From a virus, in IMG/VR virus record IMGVR_UViG_3300042566_000222, positions 1 through 31,244 of that record: a stretch of DNA of 31,244 nucleotides; one strand, written 5' to 3'. Made by a program: the position numbers and the translations under genes. Shown here in pieces: positions 1 to 13,580 of this stretch. Position 1 is the stretch's first letter. Each line of letters begins with the position of its first letter. The notes beneath the pieces were generated by a model. It had not been told where the DNA came from, did not search any database, and was given only the letters and a program-made list of their open reading frames with translations.

Positions 1-742
1 TGTAGCGAAGATCGTCTAGCTTCTCGCGTGCCTGCTTGAAAGACATGCCAGCCATTGGGCTTGTTGCGGCTTTGGCATTTCCCTTCGGTAGGAACATTCC
101 TTGCCAGCCACCATTGATGTTGTGGTCAATTATCTGGCGAACCGACAGCCCTGCCTCTACGCCTTCACGCAGGACGTTGATCGCTAGCTTCCGCGCCTGA
201 TCCGTCAGCGGTTTTTTGATCTGCTTGCGCTGCTCTTCCCAATCGGACCATGCATCTGCATCAATCCAATCAGGCACAGAGAAGGCGTCAGCCTTCTTAC
301 TATTCCCTTTATTCTCTTCCTTATCTTTATTCCCTTTATTGTTCTGTGTCGCGGTGGTGTCGCGGTCCTGTCGCGCCGCTGTCGCGGTCCTGTCGCTCTG
401 CCCTTTAGGATCGAGCTGGAAAGCATTGTAATTGTTGATAGAAATGATGGTGACACCTGTCGCGCTGTCGACACTAACCATGTCGCGGTCAACGAGACGT
501 GTGAGAAAGCGATTTGCCCAATCTTTGCTGCGTTCTAGGTGTGTAGCCATGTCCCGTACTGACATCGCAAGCTGTCCGCGCTGCAGTTTGATGGGGCGAT
601 CTTTGTAGCGAACATCTACCTCTCTCCACGATGCTCGCAGCACCATCCATGCAAAGGCCATAGCCTCAGCATCAGTGCGAAAGATCGAGTGATCCAATAG
701 ACGGCGGTAAATAAGGACGTACCCGCCCAACTCATGTGACAT
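1..742 (-). CDS. Phage replication initiator-like protein (partial, C-terminus off the left edge)
   Basis: An open minus-strand frame starts at ATG 742, with GGAG about 8 nt upstream, and is still open at base 1 (247 codons visible). Residues 1-100 (MSHELGGYVLIYRRLLDHSI..., then SVRDMATHLERSKDWANRFL) look like a winged-helix DNA-binding domain of the kind found at the N-terminus of phage replication initiators. Residues about 112-150 are a polar, low-complexity linker. Residues about 155-225 (DWIDADAWSDWEEQRKQ... IIDHNINGGWQGMF) resemble the C-terminal helical region of phage replication or DnaT-like proteins, where a GWQGxF signature is common. Its likely role is to bind the origin and load the replicative helicase; this comes from family resemblance and the adjacent recombination operon. 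The iterons lie inside the linker-coding part. A helicase-loader or primosomal assignment is equally possible. Confidence 0.7.
   Translation of the reverse strand, partial: MSHELGGYVLIYRRLLDHSIFRTDAEAMAFAWMVLRASWREVDVRYKDRPIKLQRGQLAMSVRDMATHLERSKDWANRFLTRLVDRDMVSVDSATGVTIISINNYNAFQLDPKGQSDRTATAARQDRDTTATQNNKGNKDKEENKGNSKKADAFSVPDWIDADAWSDWEEQRKQIKKPLTDQARKLAINVLREGVEAGLSVRQIIDHNINGGWQGMFLPKGNAKAATSPMAGMSFKQAREKLDDLRY
298..397. other. Candidate phage replication origin: 11-bp iterons plus AT-rich stretch
   Basis: TGTCGCG recurs at 347, 358, 369 and 380, with a TGTCGCT variant at 391. The exact 11-bp step is about one helical turn. The flank at 298-346 is strongly AT-rich and pyrimidine-biased on the plus strand. 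More TGTCGCG copies lie at 458 and 481. The cluster falls inside the coding sequence of the putative initiator, in the part encoding its low-complexity linker. This matches the lambda layout, where O-binding iterons and an AT-rich unwinding region lie inside gene O. The origin function is inferred from layout only. A simple coding repeat (Arg-Asp/Thr-Ala rich linker) is the alternative. Confidence 0.5.
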
Positions 743-4865: not shown

Positions 4866-7800
4866 TTAGCGCTTCTTGTAGTCGGCTATCTTCTGATTGA
4901 ACTCGACCATCAACATCTGCATTTCTTCGGTGACGTAGTCGATCTCTTGCTGCGGCGCACCATCTTCCTTGAGCTGCTTCTTCTCCTTGCGTAGCTTGCT
5001 GATGTCGCTCTCGTAGTCCTGTGCCTCCGCAAAGAAGTCTGCCTCTGGATACTTTTCGAAGTACGAGGTCGTGTCCTTGCCGTCCTCCTCCATTCCTTCG
5101 ACCGTCTTCTTGTGGCCGTTCATTTCCTTGATGCCATCATAGAACCGGCCAGAGATAGCTGAGGCCTCGTTGGCGTCACCGATCATGCGGCCCACTACTG
5201 GGATCTTGTAGTTAGGTAGGTCTTCACCAGTGACCGCAGCCTCTGCTGTAGAAGCGGTGTTCAGGACAAGGCGACCGACACCGCCAGTGAACTGACCAAT
5301 CAGGTAGTCGACTTGGTCACCGGTCGGGCTGAGTGCTCCAGCGGTATACCCATTGCCACCCGCTACATAATCTATGGCTCGAGCAACATAGTCGCCAACA
5401 GCGCTGACGCCTTCCTTGTTCCGCTCGTACCCTGCTGTGGGGTCCAGACTATTGAAGTCCTCACGAGCGATCTCCCGACCCGCAAAGTCCACGTTCTCAC
5501 CCAGTGCCACAATCGGATCGATGACGGTGGGGGTCAGGGTCTGAGCCGACAGGCCAGCGTTACCGATTGGGTTGAAGGAGTCCGCCATCATTCCCAGCAA
5601 GCCAATGATCTGCTCCGGAGCCTTCTCACCACCAGACATGAAGAACTCGACCGACCGGCGTCCAAAAGATGGGATGACGTGCAGGCCCAACGGCATAGGA
5701 ATGGCGAAGTACTTCTTGCCCCCAAGCGGGATCACGAGGTTCTTGTCCTTCAGCCAGTCTGGGATCTCGTCGTCGATACCGGCTGCGGCCAGAGCCACCG
5801 CCTGAGCAACGCCAAGGAGCAGGCCACCGGCAATAATCTTCTTGCCAGCCGGTCCCTTTAAGGTTTCGGCTAGACGCGCTGTACCCTGAACGCTGGCGTT
5901 GAAGAAGGCATAGAAGGCACCAGCCTGAGATCCAACCACACCCTTGCGGTTGAAGTTGACGGTGAGGTTCTTGGCAATGCTTGCCGCCTCAGCCTTGGAT
6001 AGGCCAGCTTCCTTTGCTGTCTTATAAGCAGACAGGCGGACGCCGTTCTCGATTGCTTCGTTGAAGTCCGACAGCCAGTCAAAGACAGGACCACCGACCT
6101 TGGTCGCCACTTGGCGAAGCTTGCTACCGCCAGTAAGCTCGATCTCGATTGCGTCTGCACGATCCTGTGAGGTGGTGAACAGGTCGCGGAAACCGGTCTT
6201 GCCACCCTCGAGCTCGAACTCATCAGCAAGCGCTGCCCAATTTGTGGTGGCTGTCTTACCGCTGCGCTCCGACCGGAGATCTCGATACATGCCCAACGCC
6301 GCAGGCAGTGCATTGCCGATCACCTGCCGCTGCTTACCAGCGATAGGGGTCGAGGACAGGTTGATCGATGCGCCGCCAAGGTCTCGTATTAAGTTGTAGA
6401 GACCGAAGGCAGGGTTGTATTGCGTGTTGATGGCGGCGAAGTAGCGAGTGAACTTAGCAACACCGCTGACAAAGGCGCCCATTTGGAATGCATCGATGTT
6501 CTTCAGCGCGGTCACCATACGCTGCGAGCGTGGGTTGCGGCTGTTGAAGGCGATGAACTTGTCTTCGCCATTGATGCGGGTAGCCATGACAAACGGCGAG
6601 CTCATGAACAGGCTGTTCGGACGCTTCACAAGACGACCGCTGTTAGTGTCCATGTAGCTGGTCATTGGAGCGCCCATGACGTTTTCTGCGTCAGCAGGGT
6701 CCATGCCGAAGTCGATCAGCTTCTGCTTAGCCTTAGCTGCGTCAGCGCTCTTTGGATCGATGACGAACCAGAACGAGTCATTCGGATTCTGCAGTGCGAG
6801 TGCGGCCAGTGCATTGCCAACGCGATTGCGTTCGCCGCGACTGATTATACGTTCACGCTGCATTGCAATGTTGGCAAGGATGTCGACGACGCCCAGCTCA
6901 GAGCCAAGTGCGCGTCGGGAAGAAGATCCGCGAACCGACATGCCCTGACCACTTGATCCAGCACCGCCGTCCTCGAAGCCTTCACGCTGCAGAGGTACAT
7001 AGTACTTGTACGTCTTATTCCAGTTGTCGATGGTCTCTTGGGTTTCGAGGCCATACTTAACCATCATCTGTTGCGTGCTCTTCGTGATGGCGTCGACACG
7101 ATCAGCGAGCTTCTCGAGCTGCTTACGACGAGCGTTTGGCAGACCTGCGAGATAGCTATCTGCCGCTGCATCTGACATGCCTGAGCCATTGTCCTGCATG
7201 TCTGGATTGATCTTACGGATCTGCGCGTTCCGCTCTTTGGCGTGACGTGCATGCAGGAACTTGTCGAGCGTCTCGAGAGGGACGCCCTTAGTCTTCATTT
7301 CCTCGAGCAGTGGGTTCAGCTCACGCTGGACGAAGTCCTTGGCACGCTTTGCGGCGCGACCATGAAACAGCTCTTCGGCACGATAGACGTCAGTAGTTTC
7401 ACTGATCCTGCCGCCAGCATCCTTAATGTTCTTCTGAATCCGCTTAACGTCGATCAGCTTGTCCTGAAGGTTATAGATAACCTCATCGAGCTTGTTCGGA
7501 GCCTCGCCACCAAAGTTGTAGTTGTCACTGCGGAACGAGTAAGCAGGACGCAGAGCCTGTGGCCCAGCCTGCGCATTGCCCCTACCGCGACGGCCAGAGT
7601 ACTGAACGTCGCCACCCTGCGCAGCCACGGCTTGGTCGTAGCTGTCGGTGTACTCACCCTCATCTGGGCTATACAAGCCCTCGCGGTTCTGGTCGTAGGC
7701 CATAAAGACCACGTCAGGCTCACCGCCATTGAATGCCTTGAAGGTGTCTTTGTTCCAGTCGTCAGGCTTGAACTCTTCATTCCAGCGCATGCGAGCAACG

Positions 7801-10800
7801 GCCTTAAATCCGCTGACGGAGTAGATCGATGGCAGTACTGTGTCGAAGGCGTCTAGTTTGCGACCGCCAAGGGCAACAGCCATGCGGATCATGGAGAATG
7901 CCACGCCGCGATCAGCGCTCTTCGGAGACTTGAAGGCGCTTACGATATCGTCGCCCTTCAGCGCAAAGCCAGACATGCCGTCCTTAGTAAGGAACAGGCG
8001 CATGTCCTGATATTCGTTCTCTGGATAGACATAGACCGAAGCCCCGAAGCGATTGTCCTGCTTCGAGTCGTTGATCAAACGGGTGTATAGCTTGCCTGCG
8101 GCCTTGCCGCGAGTCAGCTCATGGAAGTCTGGAGTGTCAAATCCGTTTTCGTTGAACAGATCTTTGACGGGAGTCGAGTGCGAGTAAGTAGCTGCAACAG
8201 GTACGCGACCAGTTACAGAGTTCGCAAGTACTCCTCCGCTTCGGCGTCCGACATTCCCTTCTGCTGGAGATCCTTCTTCAACTCGAGGAGTCCCTTCGAA
8301 CCGGCTGCGAAGCTTGGTTGCGAGGTCTTGGTCGGCGCGTCCTGTGCGTCCGGAGTACTGTTCAGAAACGCCAGCACCGCCTCGTCCTGCTCCTGCTGAG
8401 CTGACATTGGAACGTAGTCTTGCGTCGACTGCGTCGTTGGCTTGTCTGATTTGTTCATCACTTACTCCTGCGTTTTTCGCGACAAGGATTGCTGCGTTTG
8501 CATAATCCGGCGCGTTGTCGTCGTCGTAGCCTTCATTGACTTCGTCGGTTTTCGCGGCCTCATATAACCTTTTTTCAGGGTACCACAATAGTGCCTGAAG
8601 GTCAGCCGTCGTTAGCTTTGGATACTTCTTCTTAAGAGTGGCAAGCGTGCTCTGGAATACGCTGCGGATGTACTTCCGCTCGTTCGCTCCAGCAGGCGCT
8701 TCCTTCTGACCGTCAAGATAACCGGCAAGTCCGTTGCCTTTCTTGCGGATTTCGTCGCCAAGGCCAACCTGCTCGAAGCGGCCCTTCTGTTTGCCGACAA
8801 TGTCTTCGAGACCAGATGTATTGCCACGACCAATGTCGCTGATCTTGGTGCGGTTCGCTGGCTTTATCGATGACTTCTGTACAGCCAGAGCAATCGTGTC
8901 GGCATCTGCTTCAGCGACGTCAACACCAATGATCTTGCCAAGCTCTGAGCGCTGCTCATCACTGAGCGCAGCAACAAGACGCGACAGGATGTCCCTGCCC
9001 TTCTCTACGTTCTGCTCTTTGACAGAGACAAGCGTGCCGGTCCAGCGACCCCATGTCCGCATCAACCAGCGGTCCATTGTTAGCTGGTCAAAGTGTCCGT
9101 ACAGGTTCGCAAAGAAGCCGTTGCCAATCTTTGGTCCCAGTATCGCAGCGCCAAACACGACTTCCGCCTTGCCTTCACCGCTTACAGGAATGCCGGTCTC
9201 GCTCTCGATTTCTTTAACCGTCGCCTTCGTTGTCATGAGGCGCTCAAGATCATCAAACCCAAGCTTCTCCATCATCACGTTGAACAGCTTCATGTGGCCG
9301 TTGATCGCGTCAGCGGCTGTACCGATACCAATATCGGTCGGCATCTGCCCCGTTTCTTTGTAGATACGGTAAGCCTTCTCAGCGATCTCAAAGTTCGGAT
9401 TAACCTTCAATCCGTTCGAAGAAACAGCAAGAGCCCAGATGAAGGCAAACTTAGACTGCCTGTCCGTCGCGATCTCTGGATGCACGAGGCTGAGAACGGC
9501 AAGTGCTTTCGAAACCTTTTCGTCGTACCAGCCGATAGCATTAGCGTTCTCTTGAAGGGCGTATTCAGCATCCTTCACCGCCATCTTGGTGAGGTACTTG
9601 AACGTGTCCTCTGCATCGTAGTTTTCAGCGTTTATGCCTGACTCGTCCAAGGATGACTTGACACGTTCCTGCATAAACATCTTCAGATCACGACCTTTGC
9701 GGAAGGACTTGTTCTGCAGGATGTTGAAGTTGTGCTCGAGAGATGACGTAACCGCTGGGTTCTTGGGTACGCGACCAGAGTACTGCACGCCGTAATCAGA
9801 TTCTGCAAACGGCGCAGGCTCAGTAAATCCTTGAGATATCTCGCCGGTACGAAAACCTTCAAAGATCTCAGCAACGGAATCAACGCGATTTACGCGGAAG
9901 ATATTGCGGAAGCCACGAAGCATATCGCTTATGAAGTCGACATAGCGAATGAAGCTAGCCTTCAGACCCTTCATGTCAACGCCGCGATCCTTAGCATCTA
10001 CCAAAGCGCCAAACGCTACGGCCTGAGCCTCAAAGCCACCAAGCGGGGTGTCACCAAAGTCTTCGATAAGGCTGTCGTATACGCTGCCCTCGCGGTCCGT
10101 CTTCAGCGTCTTCAGCTTACGCAGAATGCTGGCGTCCAGATCCTTAATCCGCATGCCATCGTAGAACGATGCATTGATAGTGTCGTAGAGATATGGAGCG
10201 TCGACGCGAAGGAAGTCTTGAATGACGTGGAATGCCTCATGTGCCGCATTCTCTCGAGCAACATTCGTGAGGTTCTCGCTAAGAGACAGTGTGATCAGAC
10301 CACGAAAACCGTTCTGACTTAAGCTGTAGGCGCGATAGGCTCCGCTGGCTTCTGCACCCAGATCAATACCGCTGGCTGCTGCCGCACCGGCATCAGTTGC
10401 TGTGATTGATGGAACAAAGAGAACGTCAACCTTTGAATTGCTAGGCAATACACGAGACACGACCTCGCCCATCTGGAACGCATAGTAGAGCTGTGTTGGG
10501 TTGTAGTCGTTCTTCTTCAGCAGAGAGCGTAGGCGGTTGGCAACAATCCTGCCTTGACCACCACGAGCAGCAATCTTGTCGAGACGGTCTTGGATAACTG
10601 CCTCGTAATCAATCTCAGGCTTTGCTTCAGCTTCAGGAGCTGCCTTAGCATCCTTCGTCAGCGGCGTATCGCGGACAACGTCACTAGCTTTCTTTGCCTT
10701 GGGGCGAACAACGTCGCGACGGCCAGAGTATTGAGTACCACCATCACCGCGCTTGGTATTGAGCTGACTGATAAGCTCTGGCCCAATATCCTCAGCCCCC

Positions 10801-13580
10801 ATGTCCTTGTCTTTGGACATGCGCTTGATCTCAGCAAGATCTGCGTCGTCGATCAGACCCTCTTTATGAACCTTATTGGCGTAGCGAACGACGCCATTGC
10901 GATCATCGTTAAGGATCTTGTCCTCGATATTCTCGACGTGCTTTTCAACCTTGCGACCAGCATCTTGAGTAGGAGCTTCAGCCTCCGCCTCTTCTTGAGC
11001 CGGAGCTGGTGCCTCTTCCTTAGCTTCTGGAGCTGGAGCCTCTTCCTTAGCTGGAGCTGGCAAAGCATTCTGGGTAGGCGCTTGGATCTGGGCGGGTGCG
11101 CCGCTGATCTCGTTCGGTGCCTCTACATTGCCCTCGAGATTTATGGGACGCTCTTGCTGCGGATTAACCTGTGCATTCTGTGCTTGCTGCTCCACCGGCA
11201 TTTGATCGGTGTTGGCTTCAAAGCCCGTCATGCGGGTAGGCGAGATCGTGGCAGGTAGTCCGCTTTCGGTCGGTACTAAAGCTCGCGTGCTGGTGCGATC
11301 CACTGACTGACGTGGGTTCAGGTCGGTACCCGTCCCCTTACGTGGTTTACGCACGTCGCCAGCAAGCTCCTGCGTCATGCGTGCTGTGCCACGAACGACA
11401 CGATCAAACATTGCAGTTGGGTCTACGTCCTCTGAGATGATCACGGGTGCGCCGTTACCATCTAATTCTGTAGGCGACTCGTATTGAATGCGGACCTTGC
11501 CGCCTTCTGCGCCGACAATCGTTGCAGCAATGCCGCCAAGATCTTCGCCATAGACTGCTGGGTTGAGGAAGAACTGGGCCTCTGGCTCTGGAGCACCGGC
11601 ACGCAGATCTTCGCGCTGTGTGAGCTCGCCTGTGGCTGTGTCAAACCGGCGTTGACGCACGTCTGCCAAGCGGAAAGCTTGCTGTGCTTCGCGCTCACGC
11701 TGAGCTTCGTTTGTGACGTCCTCTTGCGACATGATGACGCTGCCTTCGCCGCCACGTTCTGGACGTGCGAATAGAGTGCCGGTCTGTGCGGTCGGCTGGT
11801 AATTGCTGACGGCGTTACGCAAGCCGCTGACGAACTGCTTGCCAGTCGACTCTAGCGACTGAGCTATGGCTGAAAGAGTTGGGCTCTCAGCAATGATTTC
11901 AGGACTGATCTTTGAAAGCTCGTCGGCAATCATCTGCTTAGAATTACTTACGGAATTTGTACCGCCAAACATTCCAGAGATACGGCGAACGGCTTCAGGT
12001 TCGACTCGAGCTACCTCTTCCTGATTAAGGATGCGAGCAACCTGCTGGACCTTCGCCACGTCGCTCACTGGTTGCGACATGATGTCGGCAATGCGTGGGT
12101 TCGACTCGTTGTTACGAGCAATATCAAGGATCTGCGCAGGCGTGTAATTCATACCGCCAGCAGAGATGTTGCCAAGGCCGCGAAGCGCTACAGCATTCTG
12201 GTCTTCAAGTAGACCGCCACCCTCGCGAACAGGGTTAGCTTCGCCTCGAGCAGCAAGTGCTGTGGCAAGCTCTTCATCTTCCATTGGACTTGGCTGATTA
12301 TCTTCGACATTTCCTGTAAGTCGATTAACAGCGCTGCTACCAGCACCAATGCCGCCACCCATTAGTCCGCCAACGATTGCGCCTTCGCCAGCCGCTTTAG
12401 CTACACCTTCAAATGTACCGACATCAGATCCAACCTTCTGCAGTGCCACGTTACCTATGAGTTGCTCAAAGCCTGACTGTGGAGCTTCCTGCGCAGCCTC
12501 TGCTGCGGTACCAATGCCCAGTTCTTTGAGTGTTCCACGCGATGCCCCGCCACTCAGGATTCGTGCTTCAAACACCGAAGCCGGAATTGACATCAGAGCG
12601 GTCGTTGCTCCAGTGCTTAGCGCAGCCGCACGACCAACTTGATTTGCCGCAGCAATTTTGGCGGCTTCAAAATCCCCGTTGTTTTCGGCGATAAGCTTTT
12701 TACCAAAAGAGCTTTGAGCAAATGCTTCTGGATTACTCTCGATCTGTTCAAGAGCCTGCGCGGTAACGTCAGAACCTGCGCTAAGTCCTGCTTGTGTACC
12801 CTCGACGCCCATACCAGCAACCGTCATGATTGCTCGTTGACCAACAACTTTCGCTGCCTCTCGACCGCCCATTGCTGCTGTTGCGCCAAACAACTGTGCC
12901 AAGCGCGGAGTTTGCGAAATGATCTTTGCGCCGATTGCAGCGACAGCCGCTTCTGGAGCCAAGGCACCTACTGCTGCAGTTGCAATAGCCCCGCCTATAA
13001 GTTCTGGAGTTGATTCTGCTACACCAAGCATGGCGGCATAGGCACGCTGACCAAGACCCATGTCTTCGCCAAGCACGCCTTTTTCACGAGCCTCGCGACC
13101 GTAGTCGGTCATTTCTGCATTAGCTATTTTCTGGGTACGGCGAGCTTGATTCTGGAGCCTTGCGTTTCCAGTGGCGTAACCAATGCCCTTGTCAATGTTT
13201 GCCATACCGGATGACATGGCGCTGCCAATGTCGCCAAGCGCACCTTGATTCTGACCGCCAGCAGCTTTTGCAAGAAGCCGATCCCTATTCAGCCCCAAGA
13301 TACGCAACTGTCCGTCGCGTGTGCCTTGGATGCCAGTCTGCTTAGTTACCCGTAGACCATCTTGATCTTTTGGAAGAGACTTAAGTAAGTTGATCTTCTG
13401 GTCAATTTGCGCAACTTCTTGGCTGACAAGATTAGAAAGATCGTTGTTACCGGTTCTGCGTTGCGTTGGTGTGGCTTCAATTTGCGTGCGTGCGCTGCTC
13501 TGTGATGCAGGCCTTGCTTGTCCAGACCGAACTTCCGATAGAAGACGATCCATCGCGGACATATTATTATTACCAGCCAT
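4866..13580 (-). CDS. Giant polyvalent virion (ejection) protein, 2,904 aa, with zincin, HhH-glycosylase-like, GNAT-like and LPD38-like regions
   Basis: Likely packaged in the virion and delivered with the DNA, by analogy with phage polyvalent proteins. Residues about 177-413 are Ala/Gly-rich with membrane-active helices. A Pro/Glu/Ala linker lies near 836-870. Residues about 985-1250 hold a zincin motif, H1114-E-A-F-H1118, with E1184 as candidate third ligand. Residues about 1347-1510 look helix-hairpin-helix-like (LGPKIGNGF with K1484, then LTMDRW with D1503). Residues about 1800-1960 are GNAT-like. Residues about 1997-2904 match LPD38-type C-termini (NPAFGLYNLIRDLGG near 2389; hydrophobic helix about 2577-2602; coiled coil at the end). 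QYSGR at Q950, Q1266, Q1741 and Q1993 separates these regions. It is the last gene of the late operon. The HhH and GNAT calls are by pattern; zincin and LPD38 are firmer. Confidence 0.85.
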   Translation of the reverse strand: MAGNNNMSAMDRLLSEVRSGQARPASQSSARTQIEATPTQRRTGNNDLSNLVSQEVAQIDQKINLLKSLPKDQDGLRVTKQTGIQGTRDGQLRILGLNRDRLLAKAAGGQNQGALGDIGSAMSSGMANIDKGIGYATGNARLQNQARRTQKIANAEMTDYGREAREKGVLGEDMGLGQRAYAAMLGVAESTPELIGGAIATAAVGALAPEAAVAAIGAKIISQTPRLAQLFGATAAMGGREAAKVVGQRAIMTVAGMGVEGTQAGLSAGSDVTAQALEQIESNPEAFAQSSFGKKLIAENNGDFEAAKIAAANQVGRAAALSTGATTALMSIPASVFEARILSGGASRGTLKELGIGTAAEAAQEAPQSGFEQLIGNVALQKVGSDVGTFEGVAKAAGEGAIVGGLMGGGIGAGSSAVNRLTGNVEDNQPSPMEDEELATALAARGEANPVREGGGLLEDQNAVALRGLGNISAGGMNYTPAQILDIARNNESNPRIADIMSQPVSDVAKVQQVARILNQEEVARVEPEAVRRISGMFGGTNSVSNSKQMIADELSKISPEIIAESPTLSAIAQSLESTGKQFVSGLRNAVSNYQPTAQTGTLFARPERGGEGSVIMSQEDVTNEAQREREAQQAFRLADVRQRRFDTATGELTQREDLRAGAPEPEAQFFLNPAVYGEDLGGIAATIVGAEGGKVRIQYESPTELDGNGAPVIISEDVDPTAMFDRVVRGTARMTQELAGDVRKPRKGTGTDLNPRQSVDRTSTRALVPTESGLPATISPTRMTGFEANTDQMPVEQQAQNAQVNPQQERPINLEGNVEAPNEISGAPAQIQAPTQNALPAPAKEEAPAPEAKEEAPAPAQEEAEAEAPTQDAGRKVEKHVENIEDKILNDDRNGVVRYANKVHKEGLIDDADLAEIKRMSKDKDMGAEDIGPELISQLNTKRGDGGTQYSGRRDVVRPKAKKASDVVRDTPLTKDAKAAPEAEAKPEIDYEAVIQDRLDKIAARGGQGRIVANRLRSLLKKNDYNPTQLYYAFQMGEVVSRVLPSNSKVDVLFVPSITATDAGAAAASGIDLGAEASGAYRAYSLSQNGFRGLITLSLSENLTNVARENAAHEAFHVIQDFLRVDAPYLYDTINASFYDGMRIKDLDASILRKLKTLKTDREGSVYDSLIEDFGDTPLGGFEAQAVAFGALVDAKDRGVDMKGLKASFIRYVDFISDMLRGFRNIFRVNRVDSVAEIFEGFRTGEISQGFTEPAPFAESDYGVQYSGRVPKNPAVTSSLEHNFNILQNKSFRKGRDLKMFMQERVKSSLDESGINAENYDAEDTFKYLTKMAVKDAEYALQENANAIGWYDEKVSKALAVLSLVHPEIATDRQSKFAFIWALAVSSNGLKVNPNFEIAEKAYRIYKETGQMPTDIGIGTAADAINGHMKLFNVMMEKLGFDDLERLMTTKATVKEIESETGIPVSGEGKAEVVFGAAILGPKIGNGFFANLYGHFDQLTMDRWLMRTWGRWTGTLVSVKEQNVEKGRDILSRLVAALSDEQRSELGKIIGVDVAEADADTIALAVQKSSIKPANRTKISDIGRGNTSGLEDIVGKQKGRFEQVGLGDEIRKKGNGLAGYLDGQKEAPAGANERKYIRSVFQSTLATLKKKYPKLTTADLQALLWYPEKRLYEAAKTDEVNEGYDDDNAPDYANAAILVAKNAGVSDEQIRQANDAVDARLRSNVSSAGAGRGGAGVSEQYSGRTGRADQDLATKLRSRFEGTPRVEEGSPAEGNVGRRSGGVLANSVTGRVPVAATYSHSTPVKDLFNENGFDTPDFHELTRGKAAGKLYTRLINDSKQDNRFGASVYVYPENEYQDMRLFLTKDGMSGFALKGDDIVSAFKSPKSADRGVAFSMIRMAVALGGRKLDAFDTVLPSIYSVSGFKAVARMRWNEEFKPDDWNKDTFKAFNGGEPDVVFMAYDQNREGLYSPDEGEYTDSYDQAVAAQGGDVQYSGRRGRGNAQAGPQALRPAYSFRSDNYNFGGEAPNKLDEVIYNLQDKLIDVKRIQKNIKDAGGRISETTDVYRAEELFHGRAAKRAKDFVQRELNPLLEEMKTKGVPLETLDKFLHARHAKERNAQIRKINPDMQDNGSGMSDAAADSYLAGLPNARRKQLEKLADRVDAITKSTQQMMVKYGLETQETIDNWNKTYKYYVPLQREGFEDGGAGSSGQGMSVRGSSSRRALGSELGVVDILANIAMQRERIISRGERNRVGNALAALALQNPNDSFWFVIDPKSADAAKAKQKLIDFGMDPADAENVMGAPMTSYMDTNSGRLVKRPNSLFMSSPFVMATRINGEDKFIAFNSRNPRSQRMVTALKNIDAFQMGAFVSGVAKFTRYFAAINTQYNPAFGLYNLIRDLGGASINLSSTPIAGKQRQVIGNALPAALGMYRDLRSERSGKTATTNWAALADEFELEGGKTGFRDLFTTSQDRADAIEIELTGGSKLRQVATKVGGPVFDWLSDFNEAIENGVRLSAYKTAKEAGLSKAEAASIAKNLTVNFNRKGVVGSQAGAFYAFFNASVQGTARLAETLKGPAGKKIIAGGLLLGVAQAVALAAAGIDDEIPDWLKDKNLVIPLGGKKYFAIPMPLGLHVIPSFGRRSVEFFMSGGEKAPEQIIGLLGMMADSFNPIGNAGLSAQTLTPTVIDPIVALGENVDFAGREIAREDFNSLDPTAGYERNKEGVSAVGDYVARAIDYVAGGNGYTAGALSPTGDQVDYLIGQFTGGVGRLVLNTASTAEAAVTGEDLPNYKIPVVGRMIGDANEASAISGRFYDGIKEMNGHKKTVEGMEEDGKDTTSYFEKYPEADFFAEAQDYESDISKLRKEKKQLKEDGAPQQEIDYVTEEMQMLMVEFNQKIADYKKR
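8213..8458 (-). CDS. Possible overlapping gene inside the giant gene (81 aa)
   Basis: An out-of-frame ORF on the same strand starts at ATG 8456-8458. A canonical AGGAG (8465-8469) lies exactly 6 nt upstream, and a GTG directly precedes the ATG. The product has normal protein composition: a polar N-terminus, then MSAQQEQDEAVLAFLNS, and a charged helical end (LLELKKDLQQKGMSDAEAEE). The giant protein's own frame here is a low-complexity linker around the third QYSGR motif, where a second frame would cost least. It may still be chance; no family is recognised. Confidence 0.35.
   Translation of the reverse strand: MNKSDKPTTQSTQDYVPMSAQQEQDEAVLAFLNSTPDAQDAPTKTSQPSFAAGSKGLLELKKDLQQKGMSDAEAEEYLRTL

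Follow-up and report, generated by a model that had tools for sequence, protein, structure and literature searches.

The window, the whole stretch of DNA analyzed here, is a viral record of 31,244 bp. At its left end lies a minus-strand gene, truncated by that end, of which 247 codons are present. Its product matches PHROG 678 ("replication initiation O-like") with an E value of 4e-23, bearing out the initial annotation, which had thought the ends of the gene initiator-like, and it also matches PHROG 2514 ("DnaD-like helicase loader") at 6e-20. The features of the locus are as follows, with coordinates in the window.

2 to 742, minus strand: initiator gene, 247 codons present, truncated by the left end of the window; PHROG 678 and 2514 matches
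413 to 724, minus strand: predicted winged-helix N-domain, residues 7-110 (AlphaFold2 model and matches to solved winged helices)
557 to 559, minus strand: codon of residue 62 (V), which opens helix 62-68 and is coupled to iteron position 5
527 to 529, minus strand: codon of residue 72 (S), directly before helix 73-85; coupled to iteron position 3
481 to 487, plus strand: outlying TGTCGCG unit in the wing codons, missed by the initial annotation
458 to 464, plus strand: second outlying TGTCGCG unit in the wing codons, likewise missed
347 to 397, plus strand: array of five iterons, units at 347, 358, 369, 380 and 391, step 11 bp, in three frames
298 to 343, plus strand: AT-rich, pyrimidine-biased stretch (72% AT, 85% pyrimidine)
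280 to 297, no strand assigned: hairpin AGAAGGC-GTCA-GCCTTCT with a perfect 7-bp stem and a 4-nt loop, also missed
56 to 292, minus strand: C-domain, residues 151-229, placed by homology to the C-domain of mEpX1 O and others

In the AlphaFold2 model, the winged-helix N-domain is joined to a helical C-domain by a linker (residues 113-152) that is unstructured at pLDDT < 50 and is also predicted to be disordered; the array had been placed in a low-complexity linker, and it does lie there. The C-domain is likely the helicase-recruiting part. Neither Phage_rep_O (PF04492) nor RepA_N gave a Pfam match in the window initiator at E <= 0.1. Named phages yielded no DNA relative by blastn at 1e-5, and among named phages and plasmids no protein relative spanned 80% of the query in one place. 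By sequence the family is without a solved structure, as is λ O, and Foldseek returned no match to the initiator model at E <= 0.001. Among solved winged helices, the N-domain model matches 4pql, 4pt7, 4pta and 5kbj, which we take to be RepA_N proteins, with Z values of 9.0 to 7.7 (4pql, Z 9.0 over 94 residues), but comparable scores are reached by other winged helices, and these values are tied with those of CRP-type folds.

The first four units of the array read TGTCGCG and the fifth, at 391, TGTCGCT, with a spacing of exactly 11 bp, just as initially described. Runs of at least three units at an 11-bp step occur nowhere else in the 31,244-bp window. A step of 11 is not divisible by three and takes the DNA word through all three frames, and repetition in the protein is therefore unable to explain the array. 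Indeed, in 20,000 synonymous re-codings of the gene with its own codons, a run of five identical 6-mers at this step never appeared (0/20,000); the longest run was four, reached 4 times. The DNA itself is constrained. In the closest relatives (L002-L013, n=12, gene DNA 86-99.7% identical to the window), all six full-word units are kept, and in the 10 distinct sequences that these relatives and the window provide, synonymous variation is seen in 1/18 codons under the array and in 109/211 of the other codons (Fisher p 1e-4).

The wider family was gathered by means of protein patterns rather than repeats; one query peptide lay in the AT-rich linker. In 71 linkers (74 representatives less L028 and L034, near-copies of the window, and the fragment L093), 6-mers matched at a lag of 11 in 396 instances, against 11.0 expected from synonymous shuffles, and at a lag of 12 in 176 against 61. 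Far from having linkers with unrelated codons and no iterons, the outcome against which the initial annotation had weighed its reading, the relatives show a signal at lags 11 and 12 together that is significant singly in 56/71 linkers and absent as a significant signal in 15/71. A held-out set of 75 representatives, from loci of which 6/160 lacked the anchor motif, gave 871 lag-11 matches vs 23.1 in shuffles, with the lag 11/12 signal significant in 70/75 linkers and not in 5/75. Lag 11 is low in four other regions of the first-set genes (3 vs 2.0, 8 vs 1.7, 2 vs 2.2 and 6 vs 3.3).

In distant relatives the array stands in the same place with different words (GAGACA, GAGGCA, GGGACA, GCGACA, GACGCA, GATACA, CGGACA and others); the commonest layout has steps of 12, 12, 11 and 11, after the codons of "ICNYDxYQ". 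An alignable array was obtained in 66/71 first-set and 69/75 held-out genes. The word is common to the copies of one gene (5.71 of 7 alike vs 4.66 expected, maximum 4.75, with the register set by a rule favoring G and CA at fixed places that could tidy the words somewhat), so the copies within one gene switch word in concert. Translated in its three frames, the shared word gives the conserved linker motif "ET..ET.ARQ.QDTEQ", which is thus the iterons themselves; where the word is GAGGCA, the motif becomes "EA..EA.ARQ.QGTEQ". The words extend beyond the linker. In 48/66 genes, the gene's own core word recurs exactly within 60 nt over the wing codons, usually at positions -48, -60 or -72 relative to the motif end, vs a mean of 13.6 and a maximum of 25 when words were permuted among genes. 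Part of the wing is thus encoded by what are probably the protein's own binding sites.

These results bear on the proposal that the repeats arise indirectly, from selection on a low-complexity protein linker or from codon bias. The linker is indeed predicted to be disordered, and the 12-bp lag is partly expected from protein repeats (61/176). However, lag 11 spans all three frames at about 35 times the synonymous-shuffle expectation, synonymous sites are frozen under the array, and the word switches in concert in all frames. The synonymous-shuffle test refutes this proposal, to which we give almost no weight.

Two further observations concern the linkers. That of the Salipiger marinus initiator (L113) carries an ACCCAA-like word, unlike all others, partly at 12-bp steps, and is possibly a far branch of the recognition code considered below. 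In most linkers examined, the string AGAACAA is kept after the last unit (window ~337-346, gene strand), and it may be a further fixed origin element.

Beside the repeats, at 298-343, is the AT-rich pyrimidine-biased stretch, as had been pointed out. Of 31,200 windows of 45 nt, only 8 have an AT fraction of at least 0.65 and at least 85% of one base class, and all 8 start at 292-303; it is the sole strongly strand-asymmetric stretch of the window at such AT content. Amino acid changes within it preserve the base make-up in close relatives. It is likely an unwinding element.

On the gene strand, the AT-rich stretch is followed by the hairpin, which there reads AGAAGGC-TGAC-GCCTTCT. Defined by a loop T[AG][AGT][AC] and a stem of 6 bp or more, such hairpins lie 85-150 nt past the motif in 33/70 first-set genes, with 17 distinct stems, and only 2 were counted elsewhere in the loci; an alternative binning put 35 in this slot and 2 in the 395,818 nt outside it. 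The loop class had been picked from the first set, which makes the held-out genes the cleaner test: the slot is occupied in 30/75 of them, and 2 hairpins lie elsewhere in a total of 254,535 nt scanned. When the stem was relaxed to 5 bp or more, 37/72 genes (the 74 representatives less L028 and L093 only) had a hairpin, whereas 300 synonymous shuffles averaged 1.0 and never exceeded 5. Roughly half of the genes are without such a hairpin. Since the stem sequence is free but its pairing is kept, a folded single strand is favored over a sequence-specific palindrome. Moreover, allowing G.T pairs left the slot count at 33 and raised the background from 2 to 19, and allowing A.C pairs added one more. 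That G.T-paired stems add none in the slot leans toward stems of the Watson-Crick type only, and hence toward a hairpin acting as DNA rather than RNA.

The iteron word covaries with the protein. Both residues of interest were readable in 118 genes, of which 90 have a core of the type [GA][AGC]G[AG]C, and both couplings were tested within these 90. Residue 72 is D in 44/45 genes where iteron position 3 is A and in 1/45 where it is not, so that D72 accompanies GAGACA-type words. Residue 62 is Q in 19/21 genes where position 5 is G and in 0/69 where it is A; Q goes with GAGGCA-type words and V, I or T with GAGACA-type words. In the first set, residue 62 agreed with position 5 in 53/53 genes, this being the best column scored (the next, 48), and the held-out genes alone obeyed the two rules in 41/42 and 40/42. 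The exceptions are L095, L272, L176 and L284. In the window, V62 and S72 stand with GCGACA, in agreement with the rule. Outside the tested core type, R62 accompanies CGGACA cores in 8/8 readable genes, and L277 combines a GAGTC core with Q62. Residues 87, 94 and 95 also correlate with the word, but copies of the iteron lie within their codons, and for this reason they were not counted as protein contacts.

In a tree for which residues 62 and 72 were masked, the coupled traits shift on shared branches (joint changes 11 for 10 and 9, and 7 for 7 and 5), which crossed trait pairs do not (15 for 10 and 5, and 15 for 7 and 9). The well-supported branches hold only four independent pairs for each coupling, so that a strict sign test is unable to reach significance. 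Since protein residues and iteron bases change together, it is unlikely that the initiator binds elsewhere than at the array. Rather, this covariation suggests that the N-domain probably reads the iterons, with residues 62 and 72 as candidate specificity residues.

Recognition of the repeats is also what would be expected if they were the sites of a winged-helix protein for repression of its own gene or for copy-number control, with the origin elsewhere. Winged-helix repressors do bind repeated sites, the N-domain model matches CRP-type folds as well, and the residue coupling shows recognition, not replication. The position and company of the array argue the other way: it lies ~350 bp within the gene (gene nt 346-396) and not at a promoter, it has a strand-asymmetric AT-rich stretch and a hairpin beside it, its gene belongs by family match with replication initiators, and the λ ori has the same layout. 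We consider the regulatory reading improbable.

In L009 the gene after the initiator encodes a primase/helicase (phrog_239, 4e-117), and the same order is found in the Rhizobium contig L099 (2.7e-91); in most relatives examined, the next gene is not a helicase. In the window, the intergenic region separates the initiator from genes for a Sak-type annealing protein and a YqaJ exonuclease. Packaging sites can contain repeat arrays, and with recombination genes nearby, the segment might be taken for a packaging or recombination site instead of an origin. However, the coupling involves residues of the initiator itself, and the few neighboring genes scanned included a terminase in L103 alone, ~2.3 kb away. 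The packaging or recombination reading is very unlikely. Cumulative GC skew has its minimum 379, 564 and 379 bp from the array in the stretches read of three longer relatives, but gene direction also switches there and only about half of each contig was read, which makes this support weak; the window alone has no clear turn distinguishable from gene direction. The ~370 bp between the divergent initiator and Sak genes (743-1111), near the GC-skew minimum of the relatives, is probably an early promoter region. Farther along, at 4866-13580 on the minus strand, a 2,904-residue protein is encoded; in its last third it matches PHROG families without an assigned function and has a weak match to a DarB-like antirestriction family.

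The initial annotation had compared the locus with λ O and its ori, which would share the arrangement with different iterons, and a λ control supports this. The same script, applied to λ O, returned lags of 44, 23 and 20, the known iteron spacings, and an AT-rich stretch in the same part of the gene. The iterons of λ (NC_001416) occupy O nt 349-433, at the same distance from the start as the window array (gene nt 346-396), and an AT-rich, purine-biased stretch comes directly past them (from ~O nt 420), as it does in the window gene. In the excerpt of PMC7466680 at hand, the λ iterons, imperfect inverted repeats, and the AT-rich tract are placed in the middle of O. The window thus shares the λ-type layout, with iterons inside the initiator gene and a strand-asymmetric AT-rich stretch adjoining, but not the iteron form: λ iterons are 18 bp (about 18-19 bp, inverted repeats) and 20-24 bp apart, whereas the window units are 7-bp direct repeats 11 bp apart (11-12 bp in the family). 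By eye, the printed λ sequence also has an inverted repeat past its AT-rich stretch; such a palindrome is a described part of ori-λ.

The use of this arrangement had been called convergent, and here the outcome is divided. The window N-domain has no detectable sequence similarity to λ O, which places the initiator outside Phage_rep_O for all its putative λ-ori-like working; the C-domain is shared with the lambdoid mEpX1 O (JQ182727; hhalign E 2e-5, 38% identity). mEpX1 O differs in that its N-domain is Phage_rep_O, matched, as in λ O, at 6e-36, and in that the gene after O is DnaC-like, not a primase-helicase. Plasmids provide a second known example of an origin inside the initiator gene. According to the excerpted text of PMC5703833, pSK41-type RepA_N plasmids have Rep boxes central in rep, a winged-helix NTD, and a dispensable ori-encoded middle region; the window array is likewise central, under the linker.

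Among named phages, the gene of Sulfitobacter phage pCB2047-A (HQ332142, 15957-16814; L117 3001-3858), annotated only as hypothetical, encodes an N-domain 39.6% identical to that of the window, and only this domain matches (residues 5-113). It has an array of the same kind with a different word, GCGGGACA, and 28 lag-11 matches vs 0.34. From this likeness, the origin of pCB2047-A probably lies in that gene. We noticed no report of this origin type in these phages in the open-access literature, which, mostly without subscription papers, is weak evidence of absence.

Taken together, positions 280-397 most probably constitute a phage replication origin inside its own initiator gene, at a probability of roughly 0.87 for the origin and its proposed mode of action, with activity inferred from sequence. 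The best reading is a λ-like build with shorter, helically phased direct iterons, copies in the wing codons, a localized hairpin and a two-residue code. The winged-helix N-domain would bind the five iterons on one face of the DNA, and the outlying units in the wing codons are probably bound too. The initiator-iteron complex would then melt the strand-asymmetric AT-rich stretch beside it. The C-domain, connected through the iteron-encoded linker, would bring the replicative helicase to the exposed strand; the helicase of close relatives is probably the phage primase-helicase from the neighboring gene. After strand separation the hairpin probably folds, marking either the limit of the opened region or the site at which the helicase enters or priming takes place.

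With somewhat better than even confidence, we extend this to a self-encoded origin in a large family of phages and prophages, the named hosts of which are mostly Alphaproteobacteria. In such a family the DNA would dictate part of the protein, through iterons read in three frames across wing and linker. Word and protein would coevolve by a code (residue 72 with position 3, residue 62 with position 5, and R62 with CGGACA), the copies switching together, and the hairpin, free in its stem and fixed in its loop type, would be a further conserved part.

It has long been asked how an initiator can change its specificity in step with several copies of its binding site. In this family, more than 100 natural initiator-origin pairs are each contained in a single gene, the words switch in concert, and two residues are candidates for specificity. 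Natural variants can therefore be used to test the question, and the coupling of the iteron word to two residues constitutes a testable recognition code. The pattern also points to probable origins in many uncultured phages and in the named phage pCB2047-A, where the gene carries only a hypothetical annotation. Moreover, it accounts for the odd conservation of the linker motif ARQxQDTEQ, whose codons are the DNA sites themselves.
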